Source: Phlegmacium glaucopus (taxonomy: Eukaryota > Basidiomycota > Agaricomycetes > Agaricales > Cortinariaceae). Taken from it: a DNA stretch of 55,103 bases. The notes under the pieces were generated by a model that was given only the letters and a program-made list of their open reading frames with translations, had not been told where the DNA came from and made no database searches. Shown here in pieces: positions 3,008 through 53,981 of this stretch. Positions within the stretch are counted from its first letter, which is position 1. The number at the start of each line of letters is the position of its first letter. The stretch is from NCBI GenBank assembly GCA_015039465.1, contig MU130553.1:154391-209493 (forward strand), given 5' to 3'. The translations under genes were made by a program, and so were the position numbers.

Positions 3008-3627
3008 GAAAATTTCTTTGTCTTTAACTTATTAATTTCATTCATTGACCCTTATTTACTTTATTAGGCAACTTCTGGAATGAGATGAAGCCCCAGTAGC
3101 TCATTATGCTCCCGCATTACAACTTGACTGATAATTGATATGTCAGTATGTTCTCTCTTATCCCTATTGTCTGTATAGTCCACTGATAACTTTAGATGCA
3201 GGTTCTGTCAAGATAACCTTCTTCTGAGTAGTTATCACCCTGCTTTATTGCAATGTCTAGTTACTTGGTTTATGTAGCTCCAGAAATCGGTACTTTAATA
3301 CAATCAATAATGTTTCCAATTATTTCGTTATGCAAAGCTATCAGTATTTGGATACAGTATATAAACAAATTGGGTTTATATATTATAGTCTATATATGAC
3401 TATACTGAGCTTTATAGTACTAAGTAGAAGCCAGGTGTTTCTGGAGAATAACAAGGTAAGCCTATATAGTAATGAGCCAAGCCTATATAGCACTCCATAG
3501 TAGCAAACTAAGCCTATATAGTGCTTCATAGTACCAGGCAGAGCAAGGCTATTTCTGGACAGAAGTGATGTGACACCAGCCAGTGCTATAAATTAAAGAA
3601 CCTTTTCTATGGTTCTATGATGCTGTG
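3008..3627. other. AT-rich intergenic stretch
   Basis: No gene is supported. There is a local repeat of the motif AAGCCTATATAG at about 3459, 3479 and 3511, and several short TATATA tracts near 3360-3410. Confidence 0.6.
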
Positions 3628-5533
3628 AGGTCTTTACACTCCCCCACATTGTCAGGCTGGAATTCTGCCGGACTGACCAGAGTCCGGCAGAAGTCTGGCG
3701 GACTCCAGAAACATCCAGTCAGAGTCCAGTGAGAGTCCGGTGGAAGTCCGGTGGAAGTCCGGCAGAAGTCCGGTGGAAGTACAAAACATGCCTGTATCCC
3801 CTCCTAACCTAAGAATGCACTACTGCACAGACAGAAAATATCCCCATCCCTAAATATTAATCCTAAGCCCTAAGCCTAAGCCCTAAATCTAAATATAACC
3901 CTAAGCCTAACCTCTAAATCTAAATATAACCCTAAATTCTATCAAAAGTCCGGCGGATGTCCAGTGGAAGTCCACCGGACTGTGACCAGACATACAGTCC
4001 AGGCATTTTTCTACTTTCACCATACTCTGACCGGACTCTCACCAGAATTTTACTGGAATTTTACCGGAGTCCGGCGGTATCGCGCACCAATACTGATTGG
4101 TAGCGTGAGAAGAAAGCTTAAAAGTCGCCATCATGAAAATAAGCGGACTTCAAATTCACTTACCTATTTTGGAAGCAACCCTGAATCGTGTTCCTGGTCA
4201 ACAAAATCATTCGTTCAACGATAACATCCCCATTGCTCATCATACTCTCAATGTCTCACACTATGCTCTCCATTGTTTTCACTATCGACATGCTCCTAAG
4301 CATATACCATCCGTTCGTTCCTTGGCTAGTGATCCAGCAAAGCGATCAATCTACTATTCGCGTCGGTCATCGGCTCGCGTTTGATCGTATCCTTGGTCCA
4401 TCATTTCAAGAACGGCCCCTTTATGGACGCATCAACTACATCTCCCATTATGTACAAGGCTTTGTCATTGTTGTTGTGGCTATGGACCCACAAGTCTTCC
4501 CCTCAGCCATCTATCTTGCCATCCCTCGCTCCTGGATCTCACTCAGTCCCCTATCCTCACTCATCTACCTCTTATCTTATCATTCACTGCCAAAACCATC
4601 ATTCACGCGGTACCTGAAGCCTTCCCACCCTCTTTATGACAATTTAGGAAGTCCAGGAGGATCACGACTAAGCAGGAATTGCAGATGAATCAGCAGCAGA
4701 GGATTATTCTCGCAGAGTGTCAAGTGTTATCAAGGCTGCGCGACATGGGACCATGGGCAAGTAGTGTTTTCTCGGGAACAAGGCTGCGCCTTTCAAGTGT
4801 TGACTCAGGACCTTTCACATTTTTGACATGACCACACGCCTATGGAGTCGATATATTTTTGCTATTGGACTATGTACACTGCCTTCTCTTCTTTTCTCTC
4901 GCACTTTGACACTTTACAGATTTTTTTTATTGTTCCTTCTTCTTTTCCATTGTTCTTTTCTTCTCGCAGCTGTCCTCTCTTTATCTTTCTTCCTTTGACA
5001 GCGCGTACTTTGTTTCTTTTATTGTTTTACATAGCCTCATCCTTAGGGTATAAATACTGCTCTTTTGTACCAGGATAGGTAGTTCAGTTCAATTCATTCT
5101 TACCCCCCACTTTCATCATCTCAGTGGAATTCCAGTGAATTCCTTCCTCAAGTTCGCTTTTTCAGTCCTCAACTGTCAATCTATCCCCACTGCCATTTGC
5201 TATAGTCTTGCTGAAGACTTCCTCTTATTCCTCCTCATCCTCTTCCTTAATCCCTCCAAGTTCGCTTTTTCCAGTCCCTTACTGTCAACCTTCTGTCAAC
5301 TGCTATAGTCTTACTGAAGACTCTTCCTCATTCATCCTCATCCTTCTCATCTCTATTCTCACCCCCTACCTCTGTGTGATACAAGTCTAAGGTTATACCT
5401 TCCCTAAACGAACAACAGGGAGGCTTTTGACTTAAAGACTAGTCCATTGCTCTCTGGTTGGAGTTTATATACAACAACAACAACGATTTATAGCGGAGTC
5501 CAGCTGGACAATGTGGGGGACTGTAAAGTACAT
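3628..5533. mobile_element. TIR family T element T2, host of element A copy 2
   Basis: The left end is AGGTCTTTACACTCCCCCAC. The right end, read in reverse, is ACTTTACAGTCCCCCAC. It is flanked by GATGCTGTG (3619-3627) and GACGCTGTC (5534-5542), a 7/9 duplication. Subterminal arrays consist of GTCCGGCGGA/AGTCCGGTGG motifs. The core (about 3850-3945) holds CCCTAAGCCTAA-type telomere-like repeats. Element A is inserted at 4078-5492; removing it with one GCGG restores the motif array. Confidence 0.75.
4078..5492 (+). mobile_element. Element A, copy 2 (1415 bp)
   Basis: Starts TATCGCGCACCAATACTG and ends CAACGATTTATA, flanked by a perfect 4-bp duplication GCGG (4074-4077, 5493-5496). It has a 5' terminal hairpin (ACCAAT-ACTG-ATTGGT) and a TATA box (TATAAATA at about 5049) in the 3' third, followed by a C/T-rich transcribed-leader-like region. 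It could be a solo LTR with unusual TAT...ATA ends or another non-autonomous element. A 166-codon frame at 4188-4688 stays open in all full copies, but I recognise nothing in it. Confidence 0.8.
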
Positions 5534-6640
5534 GACGCTGTCCAGCACTCTCTGGTGCCAGCAAGCTGACCCCCCAGTTTGCAGATGTAATGGGCACCAG
5601 TAAAAAATAAGAAAGGAGTGAGTGATGGTCCTCCTGAAGTGGGTTTACAGGTATGAAATTTTCAGTGCCACCATGCATCACCTCACCTCTGGATAACTTT
5701 TACCACCATTGGCTTTCAGGCATGTGAGCTCATAATCAGACCAGCACCCACCCCACACACTACCAGCGGTACCTCCTGAATCCCCAAGGGCAATAAACAG
5801 TATTCAGTCTGCTTGCAAAAGTATTGAAAGGGCAAGAACTTGCCAATTCCAAAAGAAAGTGGAGGTCTTTACACTCCCCCAAATTGTCCGGCCAGACTTC
5901 CACCGGACTAACCGGAGTCCAGCAGAAGTCCAGTGGACTCCAGAAAAGTCTGGTCAGAGCCATGAGCTGTCCAGCTGAGCCACTATTTTGGGCTGGCTGC
6001 ACCAGTAAATCAGCTCCCAGCTCAGAGCTGCCCTGAGTGGCTCAAGCCATGCCTTCAGTCACATAAGACTGGTACAAGGTAATCCATTGAAAAAACTTCT
6101 TGGAACATTATAATACAACTATATTAGACATTCTAAGTATTAATTTTACCATTAATTGCAGTATCCCATCCCTAGAGTCAGGAAACTGCCTCACATGGCT
6201 ATATTTGGTAATATTTACAACAAGACAAATATAGCCAAAGTTGAGCCAAAGATTTTTATGTTATGCAGATATCTGACTCTAGGAGATTTTACAACATGTT
6301 TTTCATTGTAAATATAGTATATACAACTTAAATTACAAGTAAATGGTACAACTGAGGCTTCGCACACAAGTAGGACCACAGGTGAACAAATTTGGCAATC
6401 CTAAATCCACTCAGCCACTCAGAGCCACTCAGGGTGGCTCTGGGTCATTACAATTGGCTCAGGTGCCTGAGCCAAGCCATGGCAACACTAGGCCCAAGAG
6501 CCTAGGGGAAGATGAATGGGTATTTAGCAGCGTTTCAGACTGCCCAAGGTAAAATTTACCAGTCCAAGCAGTGGTGCAATGTAGTAAATCCCCATCTTCA
6601 AATACAAAGTCATTCATAGGCCATAATAAGCAGAAAGTTA
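5534..6640. repeat. Repeat debris: T-family left end and GAGCCACTC motif arrays
   Basis: A T-family left terminus (AGGTCTTTACACTCCCCC) starts at 5863 and runs about 100 bp with CCGGACT motifs; no matching right end was found. Arrays of GAGCTG/GAGCCACTC/GTGGCTC motifs occur at about 5960-6050 and 6405-6480, which look like the subterminal arrays of another such element. No host gene is supported here. Confidence 0.55.
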
Positions 6641-12182: not shown

Positions 12183-13915
12183 ATGCCCCCTGGTCAAAAC
12201 CCAAACCTCGAACAACCACCAAACTTTGAAGGTGTGGCTTACCAACCAATTGTCAACCTGATAGTGCAGGTGCAACAGGTTACTCCGCAACAGGCTATAG
12301 AACAACTCAAAACAGCACACAATGCGGACTGCCAGGCTAGAATACAAGCATGGGACGAGCAGGTTAAACAAGAGCAAGAAGCAGAGGATCAGCTAGCCAC
12401 TTTACAAAGGGAAGAAGAGGAAAGAGTACGAGAAGAAGAACAGAGGGCTGCGGAAACCGAAAGGAAGGAGCTAGAGAAGAAGAGACCAAAGATAAACGAC
12501 TTCGACAAGAATTGAACAGGCGATGAAGTGATTATGCCACGACCCTCGCCTTTCGCTATCAACAAACTCAAGAATTTTGACTATGTAGAACTATCCTACT
12601 TTACTCCAGAAGGTTGCGCAGCAGCCATGGACGAGCGAGACATCAGCAGGACAACCGCCGATGAAGCCTTCGGCATCACGGAAGTCAACGGCGTCATGGC
12701 CTTGAAACCCATCGCTTCCTTCAAAGCGGCCAAGAACATCATCAAGGACAAAGATCTAACTTGGCAGCAAATGACTATGGGTAAAAATTCCACGCTCCAT
12801 TACATGAACAAACTCGGCTGGCCCGAGAAACACATAAATGCCCTGGCACACTTCTATTTCAAGCTCGAAGACCACCTCATGTGGCTCAGGCCCAATGGCA
12901 ACGAAATACTCATCATCTTCCAGGCAACCGTTAGGAGAGAATGGCACAACGCCCTGGAAAGAAGAGAAGGTTTCAATATTGCCAACATCAATGAGACGAC
13001 ACTTTGCACTATTGCGGACGAATACCATCACAAAAAGAGAGCGGAAGGCATGATGGAGGTCAGCCCCTTTTCTTACAGACCCCTTGCCTATACTAATTCC
13101 TATCTCTCATTCACTCCCCCTCCACTCGGCATCTCTCTCATATTGTCAATTGACTCGTGCTACGTGCTACATGCTATATGCCTCTGCTTTAACATCGTGA
13201 TACATGCCTTGTGCCTCTTGTGCCTCATGCCTCATGCCTTGTGCCTCATGCCTCATGCCTCATGCCTCATGCCTCATGCCTCACACCTCATGCCTCACAG
13301 CTCATGCCTCACACCTTATGCCTCATACCTCATGCCTCTTCCCCCGTGTTTCACGACTCCTACCTTCACCTCTAACATCCCACATATTTAACCCAACCCA
13401 AAGCTTCAGAAAGCAATCGCTAACACAACCCCACAACAGGAACACCATGAGAATCCACGCGGTCGTTCCAGAAGATCTGCCAGTCGTTTCCTCCCCAGTG
13501 GTTCTCACTACAGACAATGGTCGCGTTCAGTTTCTCCAACACCTAGAAGGTTGAGATTGCCCACATCAGCATCTAGAAATAAATACCCGTCACCCAGGCA
13601 CGCAGCTTCAAAGCCAAGACAACACGAGTCAGCATCTAACTCGTCTTTTTGAGACAGTGCATCTTCACCTGGCCCAGCAGCCTGCGCCATATGCCTCGGG
13701 CGTCATCTACACAATGTCAGGACGTGCAACAGCGCCAAGACCTTCAATGGAGGAGAAACCAAGGCTCATTGAAGTGAGAACGGTCGGCTCATATGTCTAT
13801 CCACAGGATCATTCTTATGTTCAGATTGGCAACGTCCCATCAGCTGCACAAGCACCGAACATCCCCAGTGTCACATATGCTCCGGTGATGTAACTGCACA
13901 GAGGTTGTTAAGAAA
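12183..13915 (+). pseudogene. Gag-like protein of the DIRS-like element
   Basis: Starts MPPGQNPNLEQPPNFEGVAY, followed by a Glu/Arg/Gln coiled coil (codons about 55-105) and the conserved segment PRPSPFAINKLKNF. It then continues to about 13058, where GAG|GTCAGC is a plausible donor. The following intron would carry the CATGCCT repeat and end at about 13438 (CCACAACAG). Exon 2 is Arg/Ser-rich (SRRSASRF...SRSVSPTPRR) and ends with a cysteine motif CAICLGRHLHNVRTC at about 13683-13727, a zinc-knuckle-like nucleic-acid-binding site. In-frame TGA codons occur at 12513 and at two places in exon 2 (SSF*DS and KAH*SE), each where arginine is expected. The family is common next to DIRS reverse transcriptases in this fungal class. 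Confidence 0.6.
13204..13345 (+). repeat. (CTCATGC)n minisatellite
   Basis: About twenty imperfect copies of the 7-mer CTCATGC, probably inside an intron of the gag-like gene. Confidence 0.9.
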
Positions 13916-27000: not shown

Positions 27001-30000
27001 ATGTCTACTTCATCGAAACCCCAACTCACTGCTAAGCAGATTCAGGCGCTGCAAGCAAAGTTTACTCGCTTCCGTATCCTCGTGATTGGGCGAGCCAACG
27101 CAGGCAAGACAACAATCCTGCAAAGACTCTGCAACGCTATGGGAGAACCCACGATCTTTAATCCAGATGGTGAAATGGTGAGGCATATGGCGAAAGTTCA
27201 TGCCAGATACTGACATACATGCCCATGATCTCAGATCGAGTCCTCGGCGCTTAATCCATCGAGGGGGGTAAGCAGTTCCTCTACTAGTCTTGGGTTATGG
27301 TTCGATTAATATCCTCACACCGCAGCGTGGACAGCATGACATCAAGAATGAAATAACATTTGAGAGCAACCCTGGTTTTCTGTTTCACGATTCCCCTGGT
27401 TTTGAAGCTGGCGGTGCTCAGGAGTTGAAGACGGTACAAGAGTTCATTAAGGAGCGTTCAAATGCAACAAAAGTGAATGAGCAGCTTCATACAATCTGGT
27501 GTGTTAGTACTTGCCTTTAGGGAACAAATTTCTTGACAGAAAAAATATTTTGGGTAGGTATTGCATTCCAACAAGTGATGGCCGACCAATCACGACAGCA
27601 GAAAAGAAGTTTTTCAATGAATGTGGGACAGGGCTTGGTATGTGTGTCGTCTTATCAATATGTTACTGTGAAGGATAAGCCTGTGAAGTACCAGTGATCG
27701 TTTTGTGGACCAAGACTGAGTCTCTTGATGTTGCTAAAATTAAGCAACTCATGAAGGAAGGTAACAGCAGATCCGAGGCAATGCAACAAGCTCCGGAAAA
27801 AGCTTGGACTGATTTTGAACAGAGTATTCATGAACAGTTTGAAGAGTTTAAATATCCACCAAAGACATATGTTGTATTTCGAAGTAAGTGTTCATGAGTT
27901 ATGCTTGTTAACAACTATTCAGCTAATTGTGTGTTGTAGAGATGCATGAGCCTGGAGCTGATTGTAAAGACTTGATTGAAAAAACAACAGCTGCACTGTC
28001 TAGTGAAGAATTACAACAGCTCTTTCTTTCAACACAGCAAAATGTTATTGAGCTGTGTATTAAATATGGGGTTAAAAGGTTGGTAATTATGATAATTTTA
28101 AATTCCCACATTAACATAATTCCTAGACTTTTGAATAAGAAGGAATCAACTCTGTTGAGATATTTTAGAAAGATTGAAGGAAATTGGGCATATTTCATGG
28201 GAATTGTTCTGAGATATTTCCCACAACTTGTAGTATGTATTTGATAATACTAAAAAGGATTGACAACTGATTGATTTTTGTAGAGTGTTATCTTGGGCAT
28301 TTAGTGCTTGACACTTTGGACTAACATAAATTATGACAGCGTGTGTGTAGAAAGAGTCACCATTATGTTATATTGCTTATTACCTGATTTTTCTCAACAG
28401 ATTGTAAGTACAAGGCCATGTTGATCTGCCTCGACTCTAGCTTACTCTTTTGACAGTCTGTAAGTGCAAGACCATCCTTGGTCTGCTTTGACTCTAGCTT
28501 ACTCTTTTGACAGTTGGTAAGTGCAAGACTATCTTGATCTGCCTTGACTCTAGCTTACTCTTTTGACAGAAGGTAAGTGTCAAACCATCTTGATCTGCCT
28601 TGGCTCTACCTTACTCCTTTGACAGGGGGTGAGCACAAGACCATCTTGATCTTTGACTTTGACTCTGGCTTACTCTTTTCACAGAGGGTAAGTGCAAGAC
28701 TATCTTGATCTGCCCTAGCTTACCTCTTTTAACAGAAGGTAAGGACCAGACCATCTTGGTCTGCCTTGACTCTAGCTTACTCTTTTGACAGATGGTAAGT
28801 GGAAGACAATATTGATCTGCCTTGACTCTAGCTTATTCCTTTGACAGTTGGTAAGTGGAAGGCCATATTGATCTACCTTTGCTCTAGCTTACTCTTCTGA
28901 CAGTTGGTCAGTGGAAGACCATCTTGATCTGCCTAGACTATGGCTTACTTCTTTGATAGGATGTAAGTGCAAGACCATCTTGATCTGCCTTGACTATGGC
29001 TTACTCTTTTGACAGAATGTAAGTGCAAGACCATATTGATCTGCTTTGACTCTAGCTTATTCTTTTGACAGCATGTAAGTGCAAGATGATATTGGTCTGT
29101 CTTGACTCTAGCTTACTCTTTTGACAGGGGGTAAGTGCAAGACCATCTTGATCTGCCCTGGCTCTAGCTTACTCTTTTGACAGTGGGTAAGTGGAAGACT
29201 ATCTTGATCTACCTTGGCTCTAGCTTACTCTTTTGACAGTTGGTAAGTGGACAACCATCTTGATCTACTTTGACTCTAGCTTACTCATTTGACAGAATGT
29301 ATGTGCAAGACTATCTTGATCTGCATTGGCTCTAGCTTATTCTTTTGACAGAATGTAAGTGCAAGACTATCTTGATCTGCCTTGGCTCTAGCTTACTCTT
29401 TTGATAGTTGGTAAGTGCAAGACCATCTTGATCCACCTTGGCTCTAGCTTACTTTTTTAACAGAAGGTAAGTGCAAGACTATGTTGATCTGCCTTGGCTG
29501 TAGTTTACTCTTTTGACAGTTGGTAAGTGGAAGACCATCTTGACCTGCTTTGGCTCTAGCTTACTCTTTTGACAGAGGGTAAGTGCAAGACTATATTGAC
29601 CTGCCTTTTCTCTAGCTTACTCTTTTGACAGGAGGTAAGTGGAAGACTATCTTGATCTGCCTTGACTCTAGCTCACTCCTTTAACAGTTGGTAAGTGGAA
29701 GACCATCTTGATTTTACTTGACTCTAGCTTACTCTTTTAACAGTTGGTAAGTGAAAGACCATCTTGATTTGCCTTGACTCCAGCTTATTCTTTTGACAGT
29801 TGGTAAGTGCAAGACCATCTTGATCTGCCTTGACTCTAGATACTTTTTGATAGGGGGTAAGTGCAAGACCATCTTGATTAGCCTTGACTCTACATACTTT
29901 TTGACAGGGGGTAAGTGGAAGACCATCTTAATTTGCCTTGGATCTAGCTTACTCTTTTGACAGGAGGTAAGTGTAAGACTATCTTGATCTGCCTTTGCTC

Positions 30001-32668
30001 TAGCTTACTCTTTTGACAGATGGTAAGTGCAAGACTATATTGATCTGCCTTGGCTCTAGCTTACTCTTTTGACAGGAGGTAAGTAGAAGACTATCTTGAT
30101 CTGGCCTGGCTCTAGCTTACTCTTTTGACAGGAGGTAAGTGGAAAACCATTGTGATCTGCCCTAACTCTATCTTACTCTTTTGACAGTTGGTATGTGAAA
30201 GACCATCTTGATCTGCCTTGGCTGTAGCTTACTCTTTTGACAGGCAGTAAGTGGAAGGCCATCTTGATCTGTCTTGGCTGTAGCTTACTCTTTTGACAGG
30301 AGGTAAGTGGAAAACCATCTTGATCTGCCCTAACTCAATCTTACTCTTTTGACAGTTGGTAAGTGGAAGACTATCTTGATCTGCCTTGGCTGTAGCTTAC
30401 TCTTTTGATAGGGGGTAAGTGGAAGACCATCTTGATCTGCCTTGGCTCTAGCTTATTCTTTTGACAGGAGGTAAGTGCAAGACCATCTTAATCTGCCTTG
30501 GCTCTAACTTACTCTTTTTACAGTTTGTAAGTGCAAGATTGATCTATCTTGACTCTAGCTTACTCTTCTGACAGGAGGTAAGTACTTAACCATCTCTTCA
30601 TCTGCCTTGACTTTAGCTTACTCTTTTGACAGGAGGTATGTTGAAGACTATATTGATCTGCCTTGGCTCTAGCTTACTCTTTTGACAGTCTGTAAGTGGA
30701 AGACCATCCTGATCTGCCTTAACTCTACCTTACTCTTTTGACAGTATGTAAGTGCAAGGCCATATTAATCTGCCTTGACTCTACCTTTGCTCTTTTGACA
30801 GGAGGTAAGTGCAAGGCCATCTTGATCTGCCTTGGCTCTAGCTTACTCTTTTGACAGGAGGTAAGTGGAAGACTATCTTGATCTGCCTTGGCTCTAGCTT
30901 ATTCTTTTGACAGTTGGTAAGTGCAAGTCCATCTTGATCTGCCTTAACTCTACCTTACTCTTTTGATAGGAGGTAAGTGCCAGACCATCTTGATCTGCCT
31001 TGACTTTAGCTTACTCTTTTGACAGGAGGTAAGTGGAAGACTATCTTGATCTGCCTTGGCTCTAGCTTACTCTTTTGACAGGAGGTAAGTGCAAGACCAT
31101 CCTGATCTGCCTTAACTCTACCTTACTCTTTTGACAGTATGTAAGTGCAAGGATATATTAATCTGCCTTGACTCTACCTTACTCTTTTGACAGGAGGTAA
31201 GTACAAGACTATTGTGATCTGCCTCGACTCTAGCTTACTATTTTCACAGGAGGTAAGTGCAAGACTATCTTCATCTGCTTTTTTTCTAGCTTACTCTTTT
31301 GACAGTCTGTAAGTGGAAGACCATCTTGATCTGCCTTAACTCTAGCTCACTCTTTTGACAGGAGGTATGTGCAAGACTGTATTGATCTGCCTTGACTCCA
31401 GCTTACTCTTCTGACAGTTAGTAAGTGCCAGACCATATTGATCTGCCTTGACTCTAGCTCACTCTTTTGACAGATGGTAGGTGCAAGACAATCCTGATCT
31501 TCCCTGACTCTGGCTTACTCTTTTGACAGTCTGTAAGTGCAAGACCATCTTGATCTGTCTTGACTCTAGCTTACTCTTTTGACAGACAGTAAGTGCCAGA
31601 TTATCTTGATCTGCCTTGACTCTAGCTTACTCTTTTGAAAGTATGTAAGTGCAAGACCATCTTCATCTTGGACTTTGACTCTAGCTTACTCTTTTCAGAG
31701 GGTAAGTGCAAGACTATCTTGATCTGCCTTGACTCTAGCTTACCTCTTTTAACAGGAGGTAAGTGCAAGCACAGAGAAGTCCCTATTATTCTGTCACTCT
31801 CTTTTATTTATGTTACAATATCTTTGGACAGTATGTAGGTGCACTCATTATATCTTCATTTCTGCTTACCTGATTGGCATATCTTTTGGACAGTATGTAT
31901 GTTGAACATGTGGTGTTATTTACTGATTGCTCTATGACTTACATGTATCAACAGAAAGTATGTGCAATAATTTCTGATCTGTCTTTTTTTCTTCTACCTA
32001 TCTAATACCTTTGCTTACAGATGGTAAGCATCATTACACTTACCCTTCTATTTCAATCTTTATAATAAAATATCATATGGTGAAATCTTTTTGTCTTATT
32101 TCCATATCTGTACTTACTTCCTTTGTCCAGTTTTTCTTAATTTCCATGCACAGAATTCCATCTCCAAAATTATGTCACCCATTGTGAGTGTTTGCTCTTT
32201 GACAATACACTGACAGAAAAGTAGCTAATCCCATCTTCTAAAAATTTTCAAGCTTTCCAGTCTATCTACCAAATTCAACTTAAAAGAAGTTACCTACTGT
32301 GCAATTGGCATGTCTCTCATTCAACTTTTTGTCCATATTCTCAATATTGACTTTTACTATTAGTTGCAGCTATTATTGGCCACTTGTACTTCACTCTTCA
32401 TCAAGAATCACCAAGAACCAGAAACTCTTTAAAAAGAGCTGTTCAAATTTATCAGCAATCAACTTGTGATGCCTCTGTCAAGCAAGCAATTGAAAAGATT
32501 TTTGAACTTGAAAATCTTTTCAACGGCTCTCATATAAAGAGTCACATCAAAAGTCCCTTCAAACACTTTTTGCATGTTGATGAAGTTGATCATAAATTAC
32601 TGGTTGAGGAGGCTGTACAGACTGCATTGAATAATCTCTTATGTATGAATTCAATTCTTATTTGTTGA
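27001..32668 (+). CDS. G-domain GTPase with embedded single-codon exon array
   Basis: Exons 27001-27177, 27235-27267, 27326-27498, 27558-27637, 27689-27883, 27940-28078 and 28127-28232 join into 301 codons; all introns are 48-59 nt GT-AG and every phase fits. The G domain has a P-loop GRANAGKT (residues 30-37), a G3-type FHDSPGFEAGG, and a WTKTES motif in the G4 position. It continues with a conserved QQLFLSTQQNVIELCIKYGVKR segment. This is the Agaricomycete family of P-loop GTPases whose C-termini usually end in a membrane-associated region; the cellular role is unknown. After exon 7 the gene enters 67 three-nucleotide exons (28284-32023). The C-terminal exon reads AAIIGHLYFTLHQESPRTRN and ends at TGA 32666-32668. 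It needs a phase-1 intron, so at least one more exon of 1 mod 3 length (for example AAAA at 32217-32220) must lie between 32023 and 32364; that junction is unresolved. Confidence 0.8.
28284..32023 (+). repeat. Tandem intron array with 67 three-nucleotide exons
   Basis: Units have the form GTAAGTGCAAGACCAT...CTTACTCTTTTGACAG followed by three bases and the next GTAAGT. Exon starts run 28284, 28340, 28401, 28457, 28514, 28570, 28626, 28685, 28736 and then almost always every 56 bp to 31642. The final steps are 31699, 31756, 31832, 31894, 31955 and 32021. All 67 introns begin GT and end AG; nearly all have a CTTAC/CTTAT/CTCAC branch-like site 12-14 nt before the acceptor. Codon counts: GAG 17, TTG 12, GGG 5, TAT 5, TCT 4, ATG 4, AAG 3, AGG 3, AAT 3, and one each of AGT, CGT, ATT, GAT, CAT, TGG, GCA, TTT, TTA, ACA, AAA. 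There is no stop codon. The array lies in phase 0 directly after exon 7 of the GTPase. Confidence 0.9.
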
Positions 32669-33337: not shown

Positions 33338-33645
33338 GTTCTTTACTCTCCCCTACCTAATCCATGCAGAGTCTACATGGAGTCTGAGTAGTCTGTGTGG
33401 AGTCTGTGGAGTCTGTGCAGACTGTCTGAGCAATCTTTTTGGCAGAAGGACCAGCTAAATTTCTGTTCCTAGTCTGAGTGGAGTCTGAATGGAGTCTGAG
33501 TGGACTCCTAGCATCTGCTTGGACTCCACATAGACTCTGCTCAGACTAAACTTGGACTCTACACAGACTGAGCTTGGACTAGTCCTAGCACTCTGCTAGG
33601 AGTCTGCTTGGACTCCACATGGACTAAGCTTGGACTGGGAATGGA
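33338..33645. repeat. T-family-like left end with GAGTCTG/GACTCC arrays
   Basis: Begins AGTTCTTTACTCTCCCCTACC, similar to the T-family terminus. It is followed by dense GAGTCTG, GGAGTCTG and TTGGACTCC motifs in both orientations. No matching right terminus was found before the LTR at 33682, so the element is truncated or diverged. Confidence 0.5.
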
Positions 33646-44280: not shown

Positions 44281-46745
44281 ATGATACCGGAAGCTACCGT
44301 TCACACAGCATCAATCATGCCAGGACGAAATAATCATGCAGCACCAAAGTTTGACAGAAAGCCGGCATCATTATCAATATTTTTAGATGAAATTGAACAG
44401 TTAGCTGGCACATGCAAATTAAGCAAGAAACAGACAATGGAATGGACAATCAGATATGCACCAAATGAGGAAAGAGAACTATGGGAAATGCAAGACTCCA
44501 TAGCAACAGCAAAATGGATAGAATTTAAAAGGAATTATTTGATCTATACCCAGGATCTACCGGGGAGCAAAAATACTCGGTGGCCAGCCTCAAATCCTTA
44601 GTCGAGGAACAGGCCTTAAGAAATATCCGGAATGCTGAAGAGCTTGGAGCCTATAGGCGCTCATTCCTAACAATTGCCACATTCCTTAAAAATAAATCTT
44701 GGCTAACTGATAGAGAAATCAGTGGATATTTTATGCAAAGGATGGAGTCCTCATTCAGAGCCGAGGTACAAAGCCAGCTGAGAGCCGAAGACCCCAGGCA
44801 CCATTCCAACGATCCATACATGCTCGCTGAGATTTCCTCTGCTGCACTATTCATTTTGACATGTAATTACAGGGAATTACCCCAAAAAGAAACCATTTCA
44901 ACCACAATACCAATCAAAAAGGAGACGTATGATATGTTGCAAAGTTTTGGAAGCCTAAATATAGGCGCAATAGCTTCTGAAATCATGAAACACCTTAATC
45001 TCCATCTGAACGCACTGGCCCCTGAAACAGGGCCTCGACTACGAAACAACAATTGTATATTTTATTCAGATCCATCACATTACCTAAACAAATGCCCCAA
45101 AGTCATGGAATACATACAAAAGGGACTATGCCAAAGGAACAGTGATGGCCAGATCGTCTTGCCAAATGGGGACAGAATAAATGCCCGAGATAGCCCGGGA
45201 CAAAACATAATGGAACGATTAGACAACTGGCACAAGGCCCATGATATTCCCAAGGTGTCAACAAACTTTGTAGGTGCTGCAAATACACACGAAAGATACA
45301 TGTGGACAACTTCAAATCCAAAAGAAGACAAGCCAGCCAAACTGACGACCCGAGAAGAAGAGGAGCTATTAATTCTGGAGAATTTAGTGGCCTCCACACA
45401 AAAGAAAATTGATAATGCTCGACAAAAGAAATTCTCCAACACAAATAAGCCGCAGGCACAGACAGCATCACAGAAAAGACCGAATGACATGAGCTCGGCA
45501 CCCGAGCCCCAGTTCCATTATGTGACACCGATAGAGGACCCTTCGCTGATCAGAAAGGTGGCACAGCAAGCTCTAGACGTACCAATTGCTATTACCACAC
45601 GAGAATTGCTGTCCATATCGCCTGATGTCAGATGCCATATCAAGGAACAGCTAGTGGCTAAGCAAATCGGGACGACAGTGTTCATTGAAACCTCAGACCA
45701 AGAAGACAGCCATCAAATCTTGTTAGCAAATTTAGCAGCAGAAAATATGATCGTGGCAAAAGATGTTGAGGAGTTAAGGGCCGTGGATGTCATAATAGAG
45801 GGGCATGAGATAGAAGCAACAATCGACGATGGATCCCAAATATTAAGCATTTGAGAGGACGTATGGCAGAGATCCGGCCTTCCGTTGCGAGCAGACAAGA
45901 CCATCGTCATGGAGTCAGCCAATTTGACTAAAAACAAAACGATGGGACTAATCAAAAACCTTAAATTAACAATTGGCAGGTATGATTTCTACATCCAAGC
46001 TCAAGTCGTCAAAGACGCACCCTACAAAGTGCTTTTAGGATGGCCATTCTTTACACTTACTCAAGCATCACACCAACATTTCTCAAATGGCAATTCTTGG
46101 CTTACGGTACTAGATCCAAATTCACATGAATTGATCACCATTCCTACCCGGCCCTGGAACCAAAATAACATAATCCAGGGTTCTTAGGCGTCGATGATTC
46201 ATCCATAAATAGAGGAGATAGCCCATACACAACAAGTCAGACAAATAAAAACATTTCAGCCTATTATAAAGACAATACCCATGAACTAGCCAAGCCAAGC
46301 CAAGAAGAAAGCCAAGAGGCGTTTATGTACAAGAAAGTAGCAAACAGGATCAAGCCGGTAGCAACGACGCTGCCAGAAGAATTCAGGATCGTACGAAACA
46401 TACCTAGTGACCCGCTAGCCGAGTTGCCAATGCTCCCGACATCGCCACCAGAATTCTCGCCAGGGACCAGATACACCCAAGAACGAAAGGAATCAATGCC
46501 AGTCAACAAGGATCAATTCCTATGGCCCGAAGAAGAAAAATTAGTGCACTACCTAATTAAAATTCATGAAAAAGCATTTGCCTGGGACGAGAATGAAAAA
46601 GGAAAATTCTTGGACGAATATTTTGAGCCAGTGGTAATTCCAACAATTGAGCACATACCATGGATTTTGAAAAATATTCCGATACCACCTGGAATTTACG
46701 ACCGCATAGTGGAAATCATCAAGAATAAAATCCAGTCAGGGGTCC
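44281..46745 (+). pseudogene. Ty3/gypsy gag-pol, truncated at start of RT
   Basis: Gag begins MIPEATVHTASIMPGRNNHA and shifts frame near 44535 (in an A-rich stretch) into KSLVEEQALRNIRNAEELGAYRRSFLTIATFL. The CCHC-like segment is CIFYSDPSHYLNKCPKVMEYIQKGLC (about 45055-45130). The protease site is IDDGSQILSI (45825-45851), then TGA at 45852 where SIREDVW is expected, then the rest of the protease with YKVLLGWPFF (46023-46052). A further stop and frameshift lead to HEKAFAWDENEKG and IPPGIYDRIVEIIKNKI, the pre-RT block (to 46735). RT proper, RNase H and integrase are missing. Confidence 0.8.
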
Positions 46746-48882: not shown

Positions 48883-49059
48883 AAAAGAAATTGTATATAA
48901 TTTTTTTCTTGTTATTTTTTTTTTTTTGTTTTGTTTATAAAAAATTGTTTTCTTGAACTTTGTTTTGTGAAACAGAAGAGTAAGATAATGGAAAGGAATA
49001 GAACAGAAAAGACATGGAAAAGCACGGAAAAAGCAAGGAAAGAGATGGAAAAGGAATCA

Positions 49060-52000
49060 AGATAGTGGAAGAGGTCTGGGTTTAGTCGGATAGCTCTGGT
49101 GGAAATCAGCAACAAGTTCGGACGCGTGTCCTAGTTCATTAGCTGGTAACCAGGAAGTTTCTTCGTCGGTACCTTCATAGCCAGACCACTTGACTAGGTA
49201 CAGAAGTTTGCATACACAACGTCTGTTATCCAATTTAGAGTCCAGAATCTCGGAGACCTCGAATTCCTGCTCTCTGTCAATGACGACCAGAGGAGGCGGA
49301 GGTTGAGTACGATCCGGAATAGTGTTCGGAACAGAGGGCTCTAGCATGGAAACATGGAAGACGGGATGGATGGCACGCATGTTGTCGGGAAGACGAAGGG
49401 TCCAGGACAGAGAACCTGCCTGAGCAATGATCTCATACGGACCAAGATACTTCTCAGAGAGTTTCTTTGAAGGTCTGGTCGTACGGAAGAATTGTGCTTT
49501 GACAAAGGCTCGATCTCCAACCTTGAAGTCCAGGGGAGGAATCCGACGCTTGTCCGCGGAACGTTGGTATTGTTCCTGGGAAGTAAGGATAGCTTTTCGG
49601 AGTTCCTCGTGGAGTTCGTTAAGGTCCGTAACGTACTTGTGAGCATGGGAGGAGATGAGGTCGTACTCCGGATGGATAGTGATAGCCGGATCGTAGCCTT
49701 TGTTGGCAAAGAACGGAGATACACCGGTAGTGGCACTCGGAGTATTGTTGTAGGAGAATTCCGCTAAGGGGAGAAGTGAGCTCCAGTTGTCTTGCTGATA
49801 GTTGCAGTAGATGCGGATGTATTGTTCCAAGGTTTGGTTGACGCGTTCTGTTTGTCCGTCACCTTCCGGGTGGTATCCGGAGGTGAAGTGCAACTTCATG
49901 TCGAGGGCTTTTCCGAGGGATCTGAAGAAGTGAGATACAAACTCGGAACCGCGATCGGAAGTTACATGGGACGGAACACCGTGCTTGGAAAACACATGGA
50001 TGACAAATAGTTCAGCAAGTTGAGCGGAAGTGATGGTGTCGTATGTGGGGATGAAAATGGATTGTTTCGTGAAACGGTCTACTACGACCAAGACCGCAGT
50101 GAAACCTTCGGAGTCCGGAAGGTGTTCAATGAAATCCATGGAGATGGAGTCCCAAGGACGGGACGGAACAGGGAGTTGTCGGAGTAAGCCGTATGGTTTA
50201 TGATGTTTGGCTTTGGACCGAGAACAGGTGGTGCAAGTCCTACAATAATCAGTAACAAAAACACGGATACTGGGCCAAGTGTATTCTCGACGGATAACCA
50301 CAAGAGTTCTATTGACACCAAAATGTCCGGAGACAGGATGGTCATGATAATAATGAAGGACACGGAGACGAAGATCTCCGGAATCTGGAACATAGATCCG
50401 TTGATCAATCCGGACGAATCCGGAAGAGTCCTTAGACCATCTAGCATACTTCGGATTGTCTAGATCCGATAAGTAGGACTGTGCAAGGGGATCTGTGGAA
50501 AGAGCGGAAAGGATCCCCTTGTTGAGCTCTTCAACATCCATGGTAAAGATACCACGGAGTACAGTAGGAAGTAATGAAGTAGCTCGGAGTGAAGCGGAAA
50601 GTTGTTCGGAAGAAAAGATAGGTTTAAAATTGTGTGGATTGACTTCACCGTAATCTTTCCCTCCCTCCTTTAGATAGAGGTCAGGACCACAAGTCAGCGC
50701 GTCCGGTTTTGTTCCGAGACGGCCTGGGCAAAATCTGATAACCATGTTGAATGCGGAAAGGTACTCCGACCACCGGGCTTGACGCCTGGATAAGATTTTG
50801 GTGGTCGAGAAATACTCTAGATTCTTATGGTCAGTAACCACATCAATCGGGAAACTAGCACCTTCAAGGTAGTGACGCCAAGCTTTAAAAGCTTCAAAAA
50901 TGGCGAGCAACTCCTTGTCGTGAACGTCGTAATTCAATTCTGCACTGGAAAAGGTACGAGAACGATATGCGACGGGATGGATTTCTCCATTGGAGTCACG
51001 GATGGAAAGGATAGCTGCTAAAGTGTAGTCGGAAGCGTCAGTTTCCACAATGATAGGACAGTTTGGCTTCCAGTGTGTTAACACCGGTGCGGAAATAAAA
51101 GCCTCCTTGAGAGCCTAAAAAGCAAGGCGACAACTGTCATCAAAAACCCACGGAATATTTTTCCAGGTGAGACGGGTCAACGGAACCACAATATCGGAAT
51201 AATTGTGGATGAAACGTCTGTAAAAATTAGCAAAACCAAGGAAGGATTGGACATCTTTGACTTTCTGAGGTTCCGGCCAGTCTTGAATGACTTGGACTTT
51301 TGCCGGATCCATAGAAAGGCCATTAGGACCAATCATGTGACCCAGGTACTCGACGGAATCGGAGTGGAAAACACATTTCTTACCATTAGCGAAGAGATTA
51401 TTATCTCAGAGCTGCCAGAGGACTTCGGAGACATGTTTGATGTGATCTTTTTCGTTGATGGAGAAAATGAGGATGTCGTCCAGATAGATGATTACGAACA
51501 CATCTAAAAGGTCAGCAAAAATGGTGTTAAGGAAGTGTTGAAAACCACCAGGGGCGTTGGTAAGTCTGAACGGCATGACAAGCCACTCGAAGGAGCCATA
51601 GTGGGTACGGAAAGCAGTCTTCCACTCATCTCCGGCAGCAATCCGGATGAGATGGTAGGCATGCTTCAAATCGATTTTAGTGAATATTCCGGATTTGCGC
51701 AGAGCATCAAGTAAGTCGGAAACAAGGGGTAAGGGATACTTGTCTTTCCGAGTGATGGCATTGAGTTTTCGGAAGTCGACACAAAGCCAGAGTGACCCGT
51801 CCTTCTTCTTGATAAACAGGACAGGTGCTCCGAAGGGAGACTTAGAGGGGCGGATGAAACCCATGTTTAGGTGCTCGTCGATGAACTCTCGGAGCGTTCC
51901 TAACTCGGATTCGGAAAGGGGATAAATCGGACCCAAAGGGGGCTTAGCAGACTCATCGATTTCGATTTTTAGGTCATACTCTCGATGGTCCGCTAGAGTG

Positions 52001-52815
52001 CTAGCCTTGCCTTTGGAAAAGACGTCCGAAAATTTGTGGTATATTTCCGGAACACCGTCCAGATCGGAATCGGATGGTGTAGCAGAGGCTGAGGCGGAAC
52101 GGCCAGCAGCCTCGACTGGATTGTGAACGGAAATAGAGTAGCATTGGGCTCCTTCGGAACGGATGGACCTCATGAAAGCTGCAGCAGACACTAAGGAAAT
52201 TTTAGGAGTGGTCAGTGGTTTGGGAACAAAGGGGATATCAGGAGGTGGTTCCGGAACAGAAGGTATTTCAACCTTTGTCTTCACGGAAACCGTATCGGAC
52301 ATGGTAATGTCAGATACCGGAACGGGTGCCTTGGCAGAAACGGAAACGGGAACTGGAAGGATAACTATACGGTCTCGGAAAGTTACACTGCTATCGACCC
52401 AGTCAATCAACGGATTATGTAGGGTGAGCCAGTCAAGCCCGAGTACAGCAGGAAAATCAGAATCCAGCTTGGTTAATAAAAACCGGATTTTGTGGACGGA
52501 ACCACAAGAGAAACGAACGGAAACAATGGTAGCATGGGTGAACATGCCCAGAGAAGAACCATCAAAAAGACGGAGAATCATAGGAGTAATCGGAAAAATA
52601 GGAAAACCTTTGTACTTCGCGAAATGCTTGTCCATGAAACAGTGAGTGGAACCACTGTCAATAAAAGCGGAAAAATCGATATGCGGAAATTGAAGAGAGA
52701 GAAGAGAAACAAAAACTGCTCGGGTTTCTGGAGAGATTATTGCATTGAGAACTGCAACAAGCTCAGCACAGGGCCTCTCGCAATTCACCGTCTGTGCTGA
52801 GTCCAGTGAATTGCT
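49060..52815 (-). pseudogene. Chromovirus pol: PR, RT, RNase H, IN, chromodomain
   Basis: Read on the minus strand. Protease FIDSGSTHCF (about 52657-52628); RT with RKLNAITRKDKYPLP (about 51780), MPFRLTNAPGGFQHF and IYLDDILIF (about 51490-51465); TGA at 51406-51408 where LRDNNLF is usual; then YLGHMIGPNGLSMDP. A TAG at 51115-51117 probably replaces a CAG. The RNase H part has VETDASDYTLAAILS, YDVHDKELLAIFEAFKAWRHYLEG. Integrase has the HHCC block DHPVSGHFGVNRT...CRTCTTC (about 50330-50220), D in MDFIEHLP, D in TSDRGSEF, E in NQTLEQYI. The C-terminal chromodomain reads YLVKWSGYEGTDEETSWLP (about 49200-49140). The stop is near 49057. Two nonsense codons break an otherwise full-length pol. Confidence 0.9.
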
Positions 52816-53981
52816 TAGTCTTTTTTCTTCTCCGAACCGGAGTCCTTTGGCTTAGCCGGAGCGGACTCAGAGACAGAATCAGAAACGGTAGAGGCTCGGC
52901 CTTTAGCGGAGCTTGCCTTGGCAAGGTTACACTCAGGAACGCGGTGTCCCGGCTTGCCACAGAAAAGACAAAGTTTATGATCTATCCGGCGTTGCCTTTC
53001 TTGCTGGGTAAGTCTACCCCGCGAGTCCAGCTTGCCTTCTAGATTAGGTTTAGGAGGAGTGGAAGATGAAACCTTACCGGAGTCTGCGGGCTTCACGGAT
53101 TTTTGATCCGTAGGCCGAGACTGTTTACCGGAACCGGAAGAGGGATTGGAAGAAGAGGGTACGGAGGAGGATGAAGAAGGGGTAGGACCCTTTGGAGGGT
53201 TTTGGTGTTGCTGCGGAGCGGATTCCCGAGAACGTTCTTGCATACGTTCCCAGTAGCGAGCATCAGCGTTTTGAGCTTTTTGACGCATCGCGGATAATGA
53301 CCGAGGCTTGCCATCACCTTTGCTGATTTCATCCTTGATTTGGGAAGGTAAACCTTCGTAAAACCTATACCTAAGAGCAGGCTCGCCCCAAGTACAGCGG
53401 ACTGCCAAGGAGTTGAACCGGACCAAGTAATCGGAGATACGTTGGCCGTCCTTCATTCGGAGATTGGTGAGTTTGTGTTCTATGTCGGCGGACTCGTCGT
53501 AAGGACCAAAGTTGGACTGGAGTTCGCTGACAAAGAGATCCCAATCTTCAAGCCAAGATGGAGGCTCGTCGGTGAGACCGGAAATTCCAGGTTTGAACCA
53601 TTCCTGAGCAACGTCCCGGAGATAGGACAGAGCAAAGGTTACTCGCTTGGAGTCATCTCGGAATGTGTCGGAAGAGCTCCGGAAATAGAGCTTGCACTGG
53701 AAAAGAAAAGCTTTTAGTTTCTTAGGATCCTTACCCGTGAAGGGTTCGGGCTCTCTAAGTCTGCCAGCCGAATCGGACTTGGCTGAAGATTTCCCGAGGG
53801 AATTCAAAGCGGAAACAAGTTGATTGATATGAATAGTTGGAGACTCAACTTCGTCCATAGTACTCCGAGGTTCATCAATATGACTAGCCTCTTCGACTAC
53901 ATCGGGAATGGGAGTGTTTTCGTGGGACATAATTTCTTGTATCGGTAATTGTGTTTTGGAAGTTTTAGAACGAGTTTGCAT
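52815..53981 (-). CDS. Chromovirus Gag
   Basis: 388 codons, intact. MQTRSKTSKTQLPIQEIMSH start; the retrotransposon gag core includes PEPFTGKDPKKLKAFLFQCKLYF, LRDVAQEWFKPG and NFGPYDESADIEHKLTNLRM. A Ser/Pro-rich linker precedes the zinc knuckle CLFCGKPGHRVPEC (about 52970-52930). It ends KKKD then TAA at an A6 run. Pol lies in the -1 frame and overlaps only by the segment upstream of its GTG-region, so Pol is probably made by frameshifting. Confidence 0.85.
   Translation of the reverse strand: MQTRSKTSKTQLPIQEIMSHENTPIPDVVEEASHIDEPRSTMDEVESPTIHINQLVSALNSLGKSSAKSDSAGRLREPEPFTGKDPKKLKAFLFQCKLYFRSSSDTFRDDSKRVTFALSYLRDVAQEWFKPGISGLTDEPPSWLEDWDLFVSELQSNFGPYDESADIEHKLTNLRMKDGQRISDYLVRFNSLAVRCTWGEPALRYRFYEGLPSQIKDEISKGDGKPRSLSAMRQKAQNADARYWERMQERSRESAPQQHQNPPKGPTPSSSSSVPSSSNPSSGSGKQSRPTDQKSVKPADSGKVSSSTPPKPNLEGKLDSRGRLTQQERQRRIDHKLCLFCGKPGHRVPECNLAKASSAKGRASTVSDSVSESAPAKPKDSGSEKKKD

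Follow-up and report, generated by a model that had tools for sequence, protein, structure and literature searches.

Micro-exon genes (MEGs) have been described in schistosomes (PMC4015677), and the megacycle gene of aphids contains over 100 microexons (PMC9168663). In Podospora, the HNWD genes (het-d/het-e) take part in non-self recognition; their WD repeats are homogenised within and between paralogues, with four codon positions under diversifying selection (PMC1805685). Introners, or introner-like elements, are families of near-identical introns known in fungi (PMC4457414, PMC9860276), and stwintrons are tightly coupled fungal introns that undergo consecutive splicing (PMC8469720, PMC7138796). 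The Arabidopsis APC11 gene carries a single-nucleotide exon that is constitutively spliced, probably with one flanking intron removed after the other (PMC4674806). Here we describe a GTPase gene of Phlegmacium glaucopus in which, as we consider probable from the sequence, 67 spliceosomal introns yield a 66-residue, in-frame and likely hypervariable segment whose introns are alike and whose codons differ. The segment is predicted to lie between the GTPase domain and a conserved C-terminal domain.

The gene is intact and spans positions 27001-32668 on the forward strand of a 55,103-nucleotide stretch of contig MU130553.1 (hereafter the window). Its first seven exons encode the G domain, with GRANAGKT as the P-loop, and the annotated Phlegmacium glaucopus protein P0001 matches the predicted protein at 81% identity. 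The top Pfam match of the window protein is MMR_HSR1 (23.3 bits), and no WD40 was listed in the same scan; a NACHT match was obtained for P0001 alone, at 15.0 bits, below the cut-off of 26.7. An Rfam scan of the window gave nothing at gathering scores. The first-pass annotation had counted seven ordinary introns of 48-59 nt. Six introns of that size precede the array, and downstream of it there are two more, of 69 and 56 nt, one being GC-AG. The predicted gene has 75 introns in total, 74 GT-AG and one GC-AG. When the array codons are joined to the ordinary exons, they form an open frame of 496 codons that runs into the conserved downstream exons, and the array supplies 198 of the 1491 coding bases. 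A predicted structure of the array and C-terminal part, made with the related protein P0122, had a mean pLDDT of 54.1 and was too poor for use. Elsewhere in the window, loose tandem repeats of 11, 20, 22 and 33 bp of the GAGTCTG type occur just downstream of the gene (33369-33581), about seventeen copies of the 7-bp TGCCTCA begin inside an open reading frame (13221-13338), and the list of open reading frames shows, by eye, frames resembling gag, protease-reverse transcriptase and integrase parts of LTR retrotransposons at 44580-45854 and 49057-53981.

Between the last base of exon 7 (28232) and the first of exon 8 (32154), a splice-chain search returned 67 predicted introns and 66 single-codon exons in phase 0 (Table 1). 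All 67 introns are GT-AG and range from 48 to 130 nt, most being 53 nt. Since this search restricted exons to 3, 6 or 9 nt and penalised stops, we regard it as a description and not as a test. A mechanical parse starting from 28404 found 64 consecutive GT...AG units; after each of them, the next GT begins exactly 3 nt later. Independently, Tandem Repeats Finder reported a period of 56 with 60.2 copies over the homogeneous core, in agreement with the dominant 56-bp period proposed earlier. Each unit has its own GT, branch-like CTTAC and AG, and the units are consecutive, 3 nt apart. The introns at the 3' end are diverged from the core, and their spacing is still exactly 3 nt. The array had been proposed to consist of 67 introns with as many three-base exons; the number of introns stands, and the single-codon exons number 66. 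The triplet in question is the first, an AGT near 28285; we doubt it, as it would need GTTATC for a donor and the spacing is absent from paralogue L033. We read 28233-28339 as one 107-nt intron. As each exon is one codon in phase 0, any set of them could be skipped with the frame kept, whereas retention of the first array intron would stop the frame at once. A predicted tryptic peptide from the array is ELLLGGEMEELAELGEFEESYEELEEEYEESELMSTYR.

Table 1. Positions of the exons and array features of the GTPase gene within the window.
Feature	Position	Strand	Remarks
Exons 1-7	27001-27177, 27235-27267, 27326-27498, 27558-27637, 27689-27883, 27940-28078, 28127-28232	+	
First array-side intron (predicted)	28233-28339	+	107 nt, GTATGT...ACAG; read-through stops at ..VVCI*
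66 single-codon exons (predicted)	28340-32023	+	introns between them 48-73 nt (mode 53, period 56); encode RISLKGRKMLLDNHGWLNNLKLRELLLGGEMEELAELGEFEESYEELEEEYEESELMSTYREYYKM
Homogeneous core of near-identical 56-bp units (53-nt intron plus codon)	28404-31769	+	Tandem Repeats Finder; column profile over all arrays
Four 3'-end introns (predicted)	31759-32020	+	73, 59, 58 and 63 nt; next codons TAT, TAT, AAA, ATG
Last array-side intron (predicted)	32024-32153	+	130 nt, GTAAGC...CACAG; joins exon 8
Exon 8	32154-32183	+	NSISKIMSPI, phase 0; conserved among paralogues
Exon 9	32253-32307	+	LSSLSTKFNLKEVTYCAI; GC-AG intron next
Exon 10	32364-32668	+	C-terminal domain VAAIIGHLYF...ALNNLLCMNSILIC, then stop

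The gene in the window is not a one-off but one of dozens. Exact matches to the unit pattern number 459 in the genome, 275 on one strand and 184 on the other, against 0 and 12 for a reversed control, and a DNA query of two units gave at least 989 matches. For comparison we used, beside the window, the 20 best distinct protein matches out of 46 regions named. Arrays were present in 19 of these 20 paralogues, with between 8 units (L051, cut by a gap) and 100 units (L047). In the remaining one, L050, two intron units are present; beyond them, at its positions 2467-2752, an unrelated repeat of about 60-80 bp (CCAGAACGTGAATG...) takes the place of the array and leads up to an assembly gap. L051 has foreign sequence ahead of its array, and exons 8-10 are absent from the 10 kb of L052. 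Exons 8-10 were located in 18 of the 21 loci (window included). In all of these but L047, which gave no chain, the splice-chain search connected exons 7 and 8. The 17 chained genes contain 702 micro-exons, 698 of 3 nt and 4 of 6 nt, as found by a search limited to 3, 6 or 9 nt. Their first array-side intron measures 98-113 nt, and the second array codon is I or V in 16 of the 17. End introns with GTATGT donors are similar in most paralogues. We note that L050 is still counted in the figures for 21 arrays, namely the substitution profile, the donor counts, the 804-unit columns and the comparisons of intron pairs and codon blocks, and likewise in the frame counts of the splice-chain search and in the tally of second codons. 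It is excluded from the indel, shuffle and strict counts, which cover 20 arrays (the window and 19 paralogues), six of its units having been forced.

The spacing of the units is strongly maintained. Among gaps with proper splice dinucleotides on both sides in the 20 arrays, 776 of 779 are 3 nt long, two are 6 nt and one is 2 nt (a 2-nt exon in L036), which bears out the exact 3-nt spacing first noticed in the window. With the forced units at array ends added, the count is 786 of 789. The strict count omits the forced or gap-cut end units of L033, L035, L043, L045, L046, L049 and L052, one L051 unit cut by Ns, and four gaps with a single proper splice side. AG directly abutting GT, a gap of 0 nt, was found in none of the 779 strict gaps. 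For the 6-nt case of L049, a 3-nt exon with the donor GTAGTA is an alternative reading. The 3-nt spacing is held although the introns vary by indels. In a cyclic alignment of the 20 arrays that charges indels equally for every column, 468 indel events fall on the 49 inner intron columns (9.6 per column), and the three codon columns have one deletion, plus two insertions at the AG/codon edge that are the two 6-nt cases. Over 21 arrays, departures from consensus at the splice-site G, T, A and G are 1.1, 2.0, 0.6 and 0.9%, compared with 3.4-24.4% in the other columns, making the splice dinucleotides the most conserved columns. The 802 donors include 786 GT and 14 GC.

The triplets also behave as codons. 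Stops occur in 2 of 785 triplets, compared with a mean of 76.2 and a minimum of 57 in 500 within-array column shuffles. When the strict triplets are joined, there are 2 stops in 776 codons of the predicted frame, and 31/756 and 104/756 in the other two; these counts hardly differ with L050 included (2/791, 31/770 and 105/770), and the window by itself gives 0/63, 5/62 and 8/62. Both in-frame stops are TAG. One is in L045, which has a further stop in exon 10, as in a decaying copy, and the other is in L048, at a position where its near-twin L037 has GAG. GTN triplets would offer an earlier donor; only 10 were found, against 69.4 expected from the column make-up, and we read this scarcity as avoidance. 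We also observed that the third base of the triplet is never C (0/776 strict) and that C is rare as the first base (46/776); the third base precedes the donor G, so that a C there would form a CpG. Given these controls across paralogues, chance is untenable, and the array is real. The open frame, the stop avoidance and the conserved splice dinucleotides support the original proposal of tandem introns with single-codon exons, in phase 0, within one GTPase gene.

In these arrays, the introns are more alike than the codons between them, and the predicted 66-residue segment has almost nothing in common from one sister gene to another. Across 804 aligned units, 58-62% of bases in the codon columns differ from the modal base, compared with at most 24% in any intron column. 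Within arrays, the codon is common to 41% of 56 pairs of units with identical introns, 17% of 105 pairs with one intron difference, and 9% of the pairs with the most unlike introns. Between arrays, the corresponding values are 7.7% for 287 identical-intron pairs and 4.8% for the most unlike introns. In the 56 within-array pairs with identical introns, the codons differ at one base in 21% and at two or three bases in 37.5%. Codon change by stepwise point mutation appears disfavoured in the sequence comparison. Linkage of the codon to flanking intron bases is weak and shows no clear gradient. Adjacent triplets are identical in 14.2% of 770 pairs, and therefore a simple duplication of a 3-bp target is not favoured.

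Some arrays contain repeated blocks. Blocks of four codons are repeated within arrays 17 times, against 2.3 in shuffles, in L041, L044 and L047; duplication of units is real in some arrays. Exchange between genes, on the other hand, looks occasional, as far as the sequences indicate. Four-codon blocks common to different arrays number 8, against 3.2 in shuffles with a maximum of 12, which is within chance, and block exchange therefore does not explain most of the codon diversity. Codon pairs common to different arrays are in slight excess (988 against 846, shuffle maximum 968). The distances between paralogues upstream and downstream of the array are correlated (Spearman 0.78, 153 pairs), which argues that exchange between genes through arrays is not rampant. 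L037 and L048 are 98.8-100% identical over about 2 kb from exon 8 on, in a near-identical tract at 3437-6000 and 3578-6140. In the 900 bases up to the end of exon 7 their identity is 90.7%, and the drop occurs inside the last ten or so array units. This tract is a recent exchange, with its edge apparently inside the array.

A sister gene, L054 (G000:C223:13960-16079), shows the same arrangement with a different intron. After ..FPHCV come an intron of 106 nt and the first triplet; of the 24 intron units that follow, 22 consist of an unrelated 73-nt intron with a period of 76 bp. Only 8 of 1606 sites in these 22 introns are off their consensus. Among the triplets, 66% of bases differ; the triplet is common to 6 of 137 identical-intron pairs, and one of the 24 triplets is TGA. 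A genome search with the 73-nt intron gave 224 matches, and all 115 gaps shorter than 20 bases were 3 nt (143 of 144 full-length matches listed). Two unrelated introns have thus given rise to one kind of structure, at a single site, in two branches of the GTPase family. Arrays of the 73-nt intron in the sister clade were also seen at G000:C144, C149, C164, C201, C203, C34 and C249. Copies of this intron are often identical between contigs, and occur also at C164:637046-638093.

Proteins of other species suggest that such arrays are spliced. When the region from exon 7 to the C-terminus was used in a protein search, three matches were obtained. Two of them, both from jgi, are P0121, of 295 aa on a contig of 1373 bases, and P0122, of 285 aa on one of 955 bases; each continues intron-free from the G domain to the C-terminal domain. 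Between FPH/FPN and the part resembling exon 8, each has some 50 residues in which E, W, K, F and Y are frequent. In windows of 48 residues, this stretch alone favours array over gene codon composition, by 24.9 bits in P0121 and 8.1 bits in P0122, and elsewhere in the two proteins the score is at most -1.4 and -7.4. A 955-base contig is too short for 50 introns of about 56 bp, and P0121 and P0122 most likely represent spliced RNA of other species, judging from their length and the absence of introns. Relatives therefore very probably splice such arrays, and intron-free proteins with array-like peptides at the same site add to the case for single-codon exons. P0038 and P0123 enter a similar stretch and then end, which is weaker evidence. 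Other proteins terminate at the array: ..VVCV or ..VVCI is the end of P0003 (jgi, intron-free, 1117-base contig), of P0125 and of the annotated P0001, and P0004 ends in ..VVCNWSD, which is read-through of the first donor. Retention of the first array intron would produce the ..VVCV and ..VVCI ends, and it may therefore be that splicing is incomplete or regulated. The annotated Phlegmacium glaucopus models P0001 and P0004 stop at the array and P0126 starts beyond it, and the arrays are thereby hidden from annotation.

One further protein, P0006, was considered as proof from RNA and set aside, being an annotated partial model that looks like a chimaera of two neighbouring paralogues. Its insert EKIEEEEKYDWEYSLREYYQVQI resembles the array of L049 (KIEEEDVEKYDWEYRSLREYEFYQV) and includes about twenty single-codon exons, and its C-terminal part is identical to the neighbouring gene L033 (L049 and L033 lie together at G000:C237:124000-146799). 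The units missing from P0006 have a weak donor, a GC donor or a 6-nt exon, and a gene finder or a spliceosome might equally omit them.

We infer that the transcript of the window gene is fully spliced. Adjacent introns would be removed successively by intron definition, because an exon of 3 nt would have no room for both machineries together, and near-perfect GTAAGT donors may leave the codon free to vary. In the view we prefer, unequal crossing-over and short gene conversion would homogenise the introns by concerted evolution, and selection may maintain both the frame and the diversity of the codons, in the manner reported for the het WD repeats of Podospora (PMC1805685). Fold likeness and analogy suggest a recognition or signalling GTPase as the product, with the segment as its variable part. 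A more far-reaching reading, which we put forward tentatively, is that the arrays form a system for diversification by codon units, with interchangeable near-identical introns, codons that are rewritten independently, and a private peptide of about 10-100 residues for each immune-type GTPase. The introns would then serve as frame-proof spacers and recombination tracks and the codons as payload, in dozens of GTPases.

Other explanations were weighed against these observations. The short proteins raise the possibility of a splicing switch, in which retention or failure of the first intron would give a short GTPase ending in ..VVCI, full splicing would give the long form, and array length would set the ratio. 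The intron-free P0003 ends at read-through of the first donor, and P0125 and P0001 are alike in this. Such a switch would leave the stop avoidance along whole arrays and the codon diversity unexplained, and we think it rather unlikely as an account of the arrays; it may act in addition to the splicing of the array into a variable segment. The array might instead be a 56-bp satellite that grew from an intron inside one long intron, with untranslated triplets. Tandem arrays do expand by slippage and unequal crossing-over, and annotated models end at the array (P0001) or begin after it (P0126). However, stops are avoided in the predicted frame, indels are almost absent from the codon columns, exact spacing persists between diverged end introns, unrelated intron arrays occupy the same site in the sister clade, and relatives have intron-free proteins with array-like peptides. 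We regard a satellite as the least probable of the alternatives. A simple satellite in one intron was rejected on the frame, indel and stop controls, and an untranslated 3.7-kb intron, which the first-pass annotation had named as the contrary case, does not appear to fit these results.

The remaining alternatives concern the origin of the units. By introner-like insertion, one intron would have been copied between successive codons of an older linker, such that the codons are old and the introns young. The very uniform introns of L054, whose triplet is seldom common to pairs with identical introns, are consistent with this, as are the identical 73-nt copies on several contigs. Random insertion, however, gives no 3-nt spacing, the 56-bp intron adjoins the GTPase family among the matches listed whereas introners usually hit many genes, and some arrays show block duplication (the excess of four-codon repeats within arrays). 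We consider insertion unlikely. Alternatively, units may have been born with new codons. Reverse transcriptases can add untemplated bases as they jump between templates; if one jumped between excised introns with three such bases at each junction, a concatemer could have entered the gene. This idea agrees with introns that are identical while their triplets are nearly random, and with the stop (1 of 24) in L054, the most uniform array, but nothing here shows reverse transcription, and untemplated tails should vary in length, at odds with the 776 gaps of 3 nt among 779. Such a birth of units is very unlikely in our judgement. The array of L054 speaks for linker insertion, for unit birth or for very strong homogenisation limited to the introns, as far as its sequence can indicate.

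If the predicted structure is correct, 67 back-to-back splicing events around 3-nt exons would test how small an exon can be and in which order introns are removed. Introns that are more alike than the codons between them reverse the usual rule. If strains differ in codons and not in introns, the arrays would be a new means of diversifying a protein by single residues, and their use, perhaps in non-self recognition in a tree-associated mushroom, would become testable. The array genes also show why annotation misses them.

Compared with the systems described above, the array is most readily set beside the MEGs and the aphid bicycle and megacycle genes, which likewise have runs of tiny in-frame exons in families of variable proteins. 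Very small exons divisible by three are found here too (66 of 3 nt in the window; 776 of 779 gaps over 20 arrays). However, the micro-exons do not make up most of the coding sequence (198/1491), and unlike the MEG type, the array exons are all single codons, and the introns are copies of nearly the same sequence that are better conserved than the exons. With the HNWD genes, the present arrays have in common that the units are homogenised and a few codons are hypervariable (58-62% against at most 24% off the modal base), and the window protein has no WD40 behind NACHT. The unit in HNWD is a protein repeat, whereas the unit here combines an intron with a single codon, of which the codon alone enters the protein. 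Positive diversifying selection is a feature of HNWD, and codon diversity does not by itself show it here. Compared with introners, the copies here stand head to tail, with 3-nt spacing, in one gene family; the listed places of the 56-bp intron adjoin the GTPase family, among the matches listed by a DNA search that skips common words. Stwintrons are nested, whereas the present introns are consecutive with a codon between them, and none was seen to interrupt a splice element of another. Nor was a zero-nucleotide exon (AG then GT), as in recursive splicing, found in the arrays. Searches of the open-licence PMC literature, which are no proof of absence, listed no report of single-codon-exon arrays, in keeping with the novelty first suggested, and none of the kinds compared here is known to combine long runs of one-codon exons with near-identical introns. 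APC11 has one exon far below the usual size, and here 66 are predicted in a row.
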